This document shows positions 15,958-29,365 of a stretch of 36,182 nucleotides of DNA, one piece after another. Position 1 is the stretch's first letter; every line of letters starts with the position of its first letter. The notes beneath the pieces were generated by a model, which was not told the origin of the DNA, made no database searches, and was given only the letters and a program-made list of their open reading frames with translations. The translations under genes were made by a program, and so were the position numbers. This DNA comes from Clostridiales bacterium. Lineage in GTDB: Bacteria > Bacillota > Sulfobacillia > Sulfobacillales > Sulfobacillaceae. The stretch spans positions 1-36,182 of the forward strand of contig DAHXNH010000381.1 of NCBI GenBank assembly GCA_027365485.1, read 5' to 3'.

Positions 15958-16656
15958 CTAGTCGGCTTTGAACAAGTGAGCAATTCCCTTTTGGGCAGAC
16001 AAAATATGGGACTCGACCAGCGACACGGCCCGCCGCTTCTCGCGCTCGCGAATAGCTCGTACAATCTCTTGGTGATCAGACTCATTGGCCAATGTTTTTT
16101 CTTGCGCACTGGAAAAATAAGCCCGCGCGGTTACGTAATGCGAATGCAATGATCGGTAAAGGCGCAACAACTCTGGGTTTTTTGCCAGGTCGACCAGACC
16201 CTCATGAAATGCTATGTCGGCTTCGTTATATTTCAAATAAGCGAAAGGCGTCGCATTGGCAATGTCGCCTAGGACCTTGGCCAATCCATCGAGTTGCTCG
16301 ATCGCCTCAGCGCTGGCGGATTTCATGTTGCGAACCGCAAACGACTCGATCATCAAGCGCGCATCCAAAATATGATTCATCTCGTCAGCGGAAAGACTGC
16401 GGACAAAGGTCCCACTTCTTGGCTTGATGACTACCAATCCTTCTAACGCTAGGCGGTTTAAGGCCTCTTTCACCGGCTGGTTGCTCACCTCAAACGTCCC
16501 TGCCAGTCCCTGAACGTCCAATCGTTCTCCAGCTCTCAATTCGCCGCTGAAGATCGCATCGCGAAGGCTTTGGTAGACATCGGCGGTAATTGCTACCCGC
16601 CGCAGCGGCCTCACGTGCTGGGTTCCCGTACCTCGGTCAGATCCCATCCCAGTCAT
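15958..16656 (-). CDS. GntR-family regulator with FCD domain
   Basis: Transcription factor of the FadR subfamily, 232 residues. The winged helix-turn-helix occupies about 22-90 (VYQSLRDAIFSGELRAGERL, then VSNQPVKEALNRLALEGLVV and GTFVRSLSADEM). The all-helical FCD ligand-binding domain follows (about 95-225), with candidate metal or ligand residues in NEADIAFHEGLVDLA, SDHQEIVRAI and VESHILSA. Such regulators sense carboxylates or sugar acids and often control adjacent genes. Here the neighbours are a YbjQ-like pair (convergent) and a carboxypeptidase, with the FAH-family enzyme further on; which of them it controls is unknown. The start at 16656 has a weak ribosome site (GCGGGGAT). No paired operator was recognised in the upstream region. 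Confidence 0.88.
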   Translation of the reverse strand: MTGMGSDRGTGTQHVRPLRRVAITADVYQSLRDAIFSGELRAGERLDVQGLAGTFEVSNQPVKEALNRLALEGLVVIKPRSGTFVRSLSADEMNHILDARLMIESFAVRNMKSASAEAIEQLDGLAKVLGDIANATPFAYLKYNEADIAFHEGLVDLAKNPELLRLYRSLHSHYVTARAYFSSAQEKTLANESDHQEIVRAIREREKRRAVSLVESHILSAQKGIAHLFKAD

Positions 16657-25728: not shown

Positions 25729-27576
25729 TCAATCGGTCTTGATTTGTTCCGGATCCAGCTTAAACGGCACCACCGTCACCACCACTTGCCGGCGGAAGAG
25801 CAACACCGCCTGCAAGGTCATCGCCATATGATTGTGTAGGAGATTCTTCCAGAACCTGTCAACCACCATCTCGGGAATCACCACAACCACTTTGCCAGGA
25901 TGAAGAAGATTTCGAAAATGGTCAATGTAGCGTACCAAAGGTCGTATCACGGACCGATATTGCGACTGAATCACCACAAGTTTTATCCTGTGATCCAGGT
26001 CCCATTTGCTCCAACGTTCCTGGATTTGTGCCGCCTGCTCGGGCGAAATGGCCACATGCAACACCACTAGTTCGTCCGGGTTCATTGACAAAGCATACGA
26101 CAGGGACTCGCGAGTCATCTTGTTCACCGACGCAACCGGGACGATGACGACCAGTCGACTGGCCACCGGCTTGATTTCGAAATGCTGGATCTGAATCATC
26201 TCAGTGACGGCCTGGTAGTGTCTCCGGATTGCTCGAAGTCCCAACACGATGAGCGGAATCGCTATGACCACCATGTACGCACCGTGAGTAAACTTGGCAA
26301 TAATGGAGATCACCACCACCGTGGCGGTCAGAATTCCGCCGAAAATCCCCACCACCACGGTCGCTCCGCGCCCAGGCGCGTGCGGCTCGCTCAACCGCTT
26401 CTTGGCTAAACTAATCAGAGCAATGGTAAAACTCATATAGACACCGACCGCATATAGGGGAATCAACGAGTCCGTATTCGCATTAAACACAATCACCAAG
26501 ATCGCCGCGACCGTGCCCAAAACCACAATCCCATTTTGATAGACCAAGCGATCGCCGCGTGCCATGAACATCCGCGGCATCCATTGATCTCGGGCCATGA
26601 CGCTAGCCAATTGCGGAAACCCGGCAAAGCTGGTGTTAGCTGCGACTGCCAAAATCGACATGGTAATGAATGACAAAACATAAAAGAAAATTCCATGACC
26701 GAAAATGTCGTTGGCCAGCAGTTGCAGCACCGTCACCTTACTGGTGGCGGTCACATGGATGTGAAATCGATAGGCGATGATTGACGTGCCTAAAAACATG
26801 GACCCCAAAAACAGTCCGAGCAACATCAATGCGGTCCGGGCCCGGCGCACGCCAGGCTGCAAAAAGATCGGAACTCCGTTGGAGATGGCCTCGACCCCGG
26901 TCAGGGCCGAAGATCCGGAGCTAAACGCCCGCAACAAAAGCATCGGCGCCACGGCAGCCAAGCCGATGGGATCAATATCTTGGTGAAAAGGCTGAGCCGT
27001 GGGGTCATGCTTCAACAACCCCGCCACCACCATGGACAAGACCATGACGATGAAGATATACGTCGGCGGGGCAAACAGGCGAGCCGATTCACGCACTCCG
27101 CGAAGATTGACCACGGTCATGAACAGCACGACCACCACACATATAGGCACACTCCACGGCAGTAAAAAGGGAAACGCTGAAACCAAGGCCGCCACACCAG
27201 CGGTGACGCTGACGGCTACGGTCAAGGTGTAATCGACCATGAGCGCAGCGCCAGCCAAAAGACCTGCATTGGGGCCGATGGTATCTCGGCCGATGACGTA
27301 GGCTCCCCCTCCGCCGGGATACGCGGCGATGATTTGACGATAGCCGATCACCAAAAAGCTCAACAAGAGCACGATGATTGCGGAGATGGGAAGGGAATAC
27401 CATAATGCGGCGGTTCCGGCCATCATCAACACGATGATAATCTCTTGAGTTCCATATGCTACTGAGGATAGGGCATCGGGAGCCAGAATCGAAAGCCCCT
27501 CCCACACCCCCACCTGGCCGGACTCTACATCCCGCGTCTTTAGCGGTCGTCCCAGCACCATCTTTCGCCACTGCAT
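25729..27576 (-). CDS. KimA/YdaO-like APC-superfamily potassium transporter
   Basis: 615 residues with about twelve membrane helices (to about residue 445) followed by a cytosolic domain of about 160 residues. The N-terminal membrane part (WEGLSILAPDALSSVAYGTQEI, AAYPGGGGAYVIGRD, FSSGSSALTGVEAISNGVP) matches the KimA group of APC permeases, high-affinity potassium importers in Bacillus, rather than ordinary amino acid permeases. The C-terminal soluble part (RLVVIVPVASVNKMTRESL, VVVVIPEMVVDRFW, LLHNHMAMTLQAVLLFRRQVVV) is also typical of KimA. In Bacillus such genes are controlled by c-di-AMP; the upstream DNA here carries a palindrome at the -10 box instead. Assignment to a general APC amino acid permease remains possible. 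The ATG at 27576 has GAGAGGA 8 nt upstream. Confidence 0.85.
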   Translation of the reverse strand: MQWRKMVLGRPLKTRDVESGQVGVWEGLSILAPDALSSVAYGTQEIIIVLMMAGTAALWYSLPISAIIVLLLSFLVIGYRQIIAAYPGGGGAYVIGRDTIGPNAGLLAGAALMVDYTLTVAVSVTAGVAALVSAFPFLLPWSVPICVVVVLFMTVVNLRGVRESARLFAPPTYIFIVMVLSMVVAGLLKHDPTAQPFHQDIDPIGLAAVAPMLLLRAFSSGSSALTGVEAISNGVPIFLQPGVRRARTALMLLGLFLGSMFLGTSIIAYRFHIHVTATSKVTVLQLLANDIFGHGIFFYVLSFITMSILAVAANTSFAGFPQLASVMARDQWMPRMFMARGDRLVYQNGIVVLGTVAAILVIVFNANTDSLIPLYAVGVYMSFTIALISLAKKRLSEPHAPGRGATVVVGIFGGILTATVVVISIIAKFTHGAYMVVIAIPLIVLGLRAIRRHYQAVTEMIQIQHFEIKPVASRLVVIVPVASVNKMTRESLSYALSMNPDELVVLHVAISPEQAAQIQERWSKWDLDHRIKLVVIQSQYRSVIRPLVRYIDHFRNLLHPGKVVVVIPEMVVDRFWKNLLHNHMAMTLQAVLLFRRQVVVTVVPFKLDPEQIKTD

Positions 27577-27615
27577 TGAGTCAATCCTCTCACGACGTCT
27601 TAATATCTCACAGGG

Positions 27616-27637
27616 ATTATACCCGATTCGATCGGGT
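27616..27637 (-). promoter_or_regulatory. -10 box with abutting palindrome before the KimA-like gene
   Basis: Minus-strand TATAAT (27616-27621) directly adjoins ACCCGAT-TCG-ATCGGGT (27621-27637), a perfect 7-bp palindrome in the -10/-35 spacer. No -35 hexamer is visible at 17 bp. A transcription factor site is likely. The resulting 5' leader would be only about 30 nt. Confidence 0.6.
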
Positions 27638-27802
27638 CACGGGCTTAGCCTTCAAATTTCTTCCTCCCCTCCCTGCATTAGCCAAGCCCTGACATCGCCC
27701 CTCTGGGGAAAGGACACCGCTTGCTTTCCCACCACGGATGGTCCCCGTGGCCCCAGCAGTCAGACCGTTCCTAACCCAAGGTGGATGAGGTGGCAAACGT
27801 CA

Positions 27803-27843
27803 CCGTCTGGGCCTTAGTCTTTGCGCAACCAAGCCCCAGACGG
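27803..27843 (-). terminator. Hairpin downstream of guaB
   Basis: Minus-strand CCGTCTGGGGCTT pairs with AAGGCCCAGACGG (9 bp, one mismatch, 3 bp), beginning 5 nt after the guaB stop. No clear T-tract follows. Two smaller hairpins lie at 27706-27730 and 27732-27750. Confidence 0.55.
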
Positions 27844-27847
27844 CAGA

Positions 27848-29365
<1,518 letters not shown>

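Follow-up and report, generated by a model that had tools for sequence, protein, structure and literature searches.

Introduction

KimA is a high-affinity potassium importer, and in Bacillus its gene is a standard target of the c-di-AMP riboswitch. Repressor operators that overlap the -10 box of a promoter are a general and known kind of control, and operators of the CsoR/CstR type belong to the ACCC...GGGTA kind, with an ACCC-N4-GGGT spacing. In a study of Bacillus subtilis (PMC5573677), kimA is described as controlled by a c-di-AMP riboswitch, which agrees with what the first-pass annotation of the present locus had assumed for Bacillus, and an additional, unknown transcription factor is proposed for ktrAB by comparison with observations made on kimA. 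In searches of open-access literature, no title or opening line of an abstract named a transcription factor or operator for kimA itself.

The locus described here lies in a window of 36,182 nucleotides, the whole stretch of DNA that was analysed, which belongs to a draft genome (G000) of 4.93 Mb. It resembles the repressor operators that lie over -10 boxes in that an inverted repeat covers the promoter core of a kimA-like gene, but it differs from them in showing no recognized second site and no evolutionary signal above background, and the repeat is a candidate operator only.

The kimA-like gene and its neighbors

The genes and the one strong structure that frame the locus are as follows.

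25729-27576, minus strand: KimA-like proton-coupled potassium transporter of 615 amino acids (AA_permease_2 and K_trans families; PDB 6s3k, 8b70 and 8b71; potassium ligands kept)
27848-29350, minus strand: guaB, encoding IMP dehydrogenase, the gene that precedes kimA in the same orientation
27802-27844, minus strand: strong predicted hairpin directly 3' of guaB, without a T run, a possible guaB terminator

The identification of the first gene as a KimA-like transporter, made at first pass from the translation, is confirmed by a match over its full length to KimA of B. subtilis (6s3k/8b70/8b71; E 1.6e-138, residues 4-606 aligned), which is the sole PDB match of the open reading frame at E <= 0.001. 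The residues of B. subtilis KimA that bind potassium and c-di-AMP are given in PMC10284832. All four potassium ligands (D36, Y43, T230 and Y377 in B. subtilis numbering) are kept, as are the c-di-AMP contacts R337, H579 and N580, whilst the homologue differs at or around the c-di-AMP pocket by Q581H, S582M, F565I, F568M, L461I and W592F. Control of the protein by c-di-AMP is plausible because Arg337, His579 and Asn580 of the site are kept, although the proposal is weakened by the replacement of Q581 and S582 with H and M. The same source (PMC10284832) names the amide groups of these two residues, and their side chains may therefore not matter.

The intergenic region between guaB and kimA is 271 nt long. 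The hairpin that follows guaB is very stable and is conserved in the sister species, and is perhaps a terminator of unusual form. No regulator gene was found beside kimA among the open reading frames scanned, and the nearest Pfam regulator domain belongs to a GntR/FCD gene at 15958-16656. A second KimA paralogue is present in the same draft genome (C437:36144-37949), in which TrkH gave no match, and potassium uptake in this organism may lean on KimA proteins.

c-di-AMP riboswitches in the genome and the family

No Rfam family reached its gathering score in the window, and no riboswitch was found in 27500-27900 at E <= 10, a permissive Rfam scan of that segment returning three weak matches only, all to unrelated families. 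Across the class, the c-di-AMP riboswitch (RF00379) was matched at none of the 33 kimA-family loci scanned with flanks of up to ~1.5 kb, a set that leaves aside further, mostly more distant, kimA-family matches in the class. Elsewhere the riboswitch does occur, with four RF00379 matches in the draft genome itself and at least one in each of the 34 family genomes, and a DAC-domain cyclase was matched once in each of the two genomes of the genus. Set against the ydaO-yuaA riboswitch control of B. subtilis kimA, the present locus shares the transporter family, and its organism has both the cyclase and four RF00379 elements, but the riboswitch is missing from every kimA locus scanned and the leader would be only ~32 nt long.

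Three of the four RF00379 matches in the draft genome lie at C395:54541-54680, C257:2821-2954 and C387:7039-7162. One of these precedes a glycosyltransferase gene and then a gene resembling sucrose-phosphate phosphatase, possibly for osmolyte synthesis; another lies before a gene for a 3D/peptidoglycan-binding cell-wall protein, and another before an ABC permease gene followed by one for a substrate-binding protein.

Anatomy of the probable kimA promoter

The following elements were recognized in the intergenic region upstream of the kimA start codon.

27621-27637, either strand: inverted repeat ACCCGAT-N3-ATCGGGT, an exact match kept in the sister species G001; candidate operator or incidental
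27616-27621, minus strand: TATAAT, probably serving as the -10 element for kimA, kept in G001, without a -35 element
27577-27609, minus strand: predicted kimA 5' leader of ~32 nt, with a start at ~27608-27609 judged from the position of the -10 element
27585-27590, minus strand: AGAGGA, a probable ribosome-binding site, 8 nt from the kimA ATG
27642-27650, minus strand: GGCT-N-AGCC, a small second palindrome upstream

A sequence search of the window recovered the larger palindrome with 0 mismatches. It reads ACCCGAT-CGA-ATCGGGT on the minus strand, where its final T doubles as the first T of TATAAT, so that the two elements overlap by a single base (27621); the TATAAT begins 45 nt before the kimA ATG, with 39 nt in between. 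The smaller palindrome is probably of a length that chance would readily give, and one of the three differences from G001 within the 85 nt upstream of kimA falls on its central base.

No sigma-70-type promoter and no intrinsic terminator was matched in 27400-27950, and the best -35 match for the kimA TATAAT at a spacer of 15-19 is 2 of 6 positions. The first-pass annotation was right that the palindrome touches the TATAAT and that a -35 hexamer at the right distance is missing. It was also right, provided that this TATAAT is used, that a c-di-AMP riboswitch would not fit in the leader, which would be ~32 nt long, and none was found.

The meaning of the missing -35 element was assessed in the 220 upstream regions of a 433-kb survey, in which gene models were simple longest open frames and some TATAAT boxes will not be promoters. 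TATAAT occurred 19 times on the sense strand and 7 times on the antisense strand, against a shuffle mean of 8.0, and TTGACN followed by TANNNT at a spacing of 16-18 occurred 5 times on the sense strand and once on the antisense strand, against 1.6 in shuffles. The enrichment of TATAAT upstream on the sense strand suggests that such boxes are often real promoters. None of the 19 has a -35 element with at least 5 of 6 matches to TTGACA at a spacer of 15-19, the figure for shuffled flanks being ~2.7%. A good -10 element without a -35 element is normal in this sample of the genome, and the missing -35 was dropped as a sign that the kimA promoter is special, since the survey shows the same elsewhere.

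Chance expectation for the palindrome

When the 271-nt intergenic region was dinucleotide-shuffled 2000 times, perfect inverted repeats with arms of at least 7 and a gap of 0-8 arose in 250 of the shuffles (46 of 2000 with a gap of exactly 3); for the 64-nt promoter segment by itself the figure was 34 of 2000. Within ~433 kb of this genome, a sample that takes in the window, such a repeat is carried by 14 of 185 upstream regions of 100 nt, that of kimA included. The palindrome is not convincingly beyond chance, is fairly rare locally, within the promoter segment, and belongs to a kind of which a reader of 36 kb would likely meet one or more. None of the other 18 TATAAT boxes in upstream regions has a repeat with an arm of at least 6 next to it; there is no general habit of repeats that adjoin TATAAT, since that of kimA is the only one among 19 boxes.

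Conservation in the sister species

The genus is represented in this comparison by two genomes, G000 and G001. All 17 bases of the palindrome are kept in G001, and the 85 nt upstream of kimA contain 3 substitutions. With 67 of 334 fourfold sites of kimA differing between the two, three or fewer changes in 85 nt have a P of 1e-5 at the kimA fourfold rate and of 0.005 at the guaB rate. This conservation looked strong at first as a sign of selection, but was set aside as such when it proved unremarkable against 20 upstream blocks. The 85-nt blocks before 20 genes of the window carry 0 to 15 substitutions, and besides kimA 8 of 19 genes have three or fewer. As 8 of the 20 blocks run for at least 42 nt through a neighboring gene, the mostly intergenic ones were also counted separately, and among these 3 of 11 others have three or fewer, which places kimA fourth of 12 in conservation. 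The block upstream of kimA is on the conserved side, and is not unusual.

Farther from kimA, the middle of the intergenic region (~27660-27800) differs at 24 of 137 aligned sites and has 12 gap columns. At the guaB end, the first 48 alignment columns, which cover the hairpin stretch, hold 47 aligned bases with 2 substitutions.

Recurrence of the site

The first-pass annotation had proposed a search for the palindrome before other ion-transport genes, and none was found there, either among annotated neighbors or in loci of TrkA_N genes and kimA paralogues. In its own genome, with 2 mismatches allowed, the palindrome occurs at 29 places and the reversed control at 21. Twenty of the 28 other sites fall within open frames that are 130 codons long or longer, and Pfam annotation of the neighbors of five of the remaining eight (L095, L100, L103, L109 and L116) gave genes for an adenosylhomocysteinase, a phosphorylase and a transposase-like protein, besides frames whose family matches are weak or lacking, with no ion transporter among the annotated neighbors of these five sites. 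In nine TrkA_N or kimA-paralogue loci scanned, ACCCGAT and ATCGGGT were nowhere joined as a palindrome.

Across the family, the palindrome was found with up to 1 mismatch at 23 places, spread over 16 of the 34 genomes, against 9 for the reversed control. As the reversed control differs in its dinucleotides, this excess is no fair comparison, though neither is it explained away. Twenty of these places remain when those of G000 itself and the kimA site of G001 are excluded, and the nine that were read (two in G001 and seven in other genera) are all in open frames of at least 170 codons. When up to 400 nt upstream of the 33 kimA-family loci were searched, the palindrome was present only in the window and in G001. 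The closest match after these (L025) is no palindrome, as its 3 mismatches all fall in the right half, and the best match at every remaining locus has at least 5. Likewise, when the intergenic region served as a DNA query against the 34 family genomes, only the window and G001 matched. The idea of a palindrome regulon was rejected, since the searches of the genome and the family show no co-regulated gene set. The palindrome is a unique site and not part of a visible regulon, though a regulator with a single site would not need to recur before co-regulated genes.

A looser likeness was seen in G080, which belongs to another family of the same order and has GACCCCCCGGGTCCGGGTATAAT upstream of kimA. 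There, GACCC-N9-GGGTATAAT stands at -53 before kimA (C1:1772653-1772674, L162), the only exact match in that genome. In 154 genomes of the class there are 10 exact ACCC-N9-GGGTATAAT matches, against 6 for the reversed control. Three are before kimA, and the others, judged by eye, are before tRNA-like, glycosyltransferase-like, selA-like and other genes, or lie within a reading frame. In the draft genome the form occurs 76 times at up to 2 mismatches, against 75 in the control. The likeness was dropped, as the pattern had been chosen after it was seen, stands before unrelated genes elsewhere and has no clear excess at a gap of 9, and its occurrence before kimA is taken, with some doubt, to be a coincidence of GGGTATAAT promoters. 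Another palindrome that touches a TATAAT, ACCCGA-GATA-TCGGGTATAAT, was observed in G001 (C201:794-814, L169), with no clear gene behind it.

Discussion

The explanation that we favor, with a confidence somewhat better than even, is that the promoter of kimA is an ordinary one and its leader short, that the palindrome is incidental, and that any control by potassium or c-di-AMP is exerted on the KimA protein. The gene would have its own vegetative-type promoter with TATAAT (27616-27621) as the -10 element, and its mRNA would start near 27608, with no room for a c-di-AMP riboswitch in the leader that follows. The palindrome would most likely be promoter sequence and no operator, and potassium or c-di-AMP control, if there is any, would most likely act on KimA, whose c-di-AMP site is partly kept. 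The analysis shows the sequence, the identity of the gene, the absence of a known riboswitch and the lack of a visible regulon; the promoter class, the start site and the protein-level control are what we infer. Counter to an incidental palindrome is its position, as it overlaps the -10 element exactly where a repressor would act. The first-pass annotation suggested control by a DNA-binding factor, a suggestion that the present analysis does not support, since palindromes, -35 absence and conservation all match the background and there is no visible regulon. The operator of a dedicated regulator is nonetheless a tentative alternative, distinctly less probable than the incidental palindrome: a repressor bound at about -28 to -12 would deny RNA polymerase access to the -10 element and would replace the riboswitch of Bacillus. 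The palindrome does sit over the promoter core, its bases are exact in G001 (17 of 17), and there is more divergence in the middle of the intergenic region than in the part next to kimA (24/137 plus 12 gap columns vs 3/85; Fisher P 0.0014). The quality of the palindrome is, however, ordinary for upstream regions and its conservation no more than is usual in the 85 nt upstream of genes, no second site was recognized and no conservation was seen outside the genus, and the open reading frames scanned beside kimA include no regulator gene.

Transcription of kimA mainly from upstream, through guaB read-through or from a promoter near 27800, with the palindrome forming an RNA hairpin within a long structured leader of a type not yet described, is improbable. 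The 271-nt intergenic region does fold better than its shuffles (z -2.98), and read-through from guaB is possible because the hairpin after that gene has no T run. From the structure, though, the stable fold is probably owed largely to this very hairpin, neither a promoter match upstream nor an Rfam family was found, and the diverged middle, with its gap columns in G001, is unlike structured RNA and argues against a long structured leader. More improbable by far is a metal- or sulfide-sensing operator of the CsoR/CstR type, of the ACCC...GGGTA kind, over the -10 element. The ends of the palindrome, ACCC and GGGT(ATAAT), resemble this operator type, and in a survey of gaps 2-20 in the 154 class genomes ACCC-N4-GGGTATAAT was in excess, with 19 of 127 matches where the other gaps average 6.0. 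Two of the gap-4 sites stand shortly upstream of genes whose translations read as rhodanese-like (G106:C78:2219-2235, L179, and G122:C172:6301-6317, L180); these two sites look like operators of the CsoR/CstR type. The kimA site, however, has a spacing of 9 and not 4, a gap that lacks a clear excess (10 of 127 matches, P 0.07, two pairs of sister sites included), and several of the gap-4 sites that were read have no clear promoter position.

The Sulfobacillus-like family presents c-di-AMP riboswitches in all 34 of its genomes yet none at the kimA loci scanned, and control of the importer, if there is any, therefore lies elsewhere, at the promoter or in the protein. That kimA in this genus, having no riboswitch, is governed by a dedicated repressor at the one palindrome by the -10 element is rather unlikely; if true, it would constitute a protein-based potassium or c-di-AMP switch for the KimA gene, of a kind that has been suspected in B. 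subtilis.
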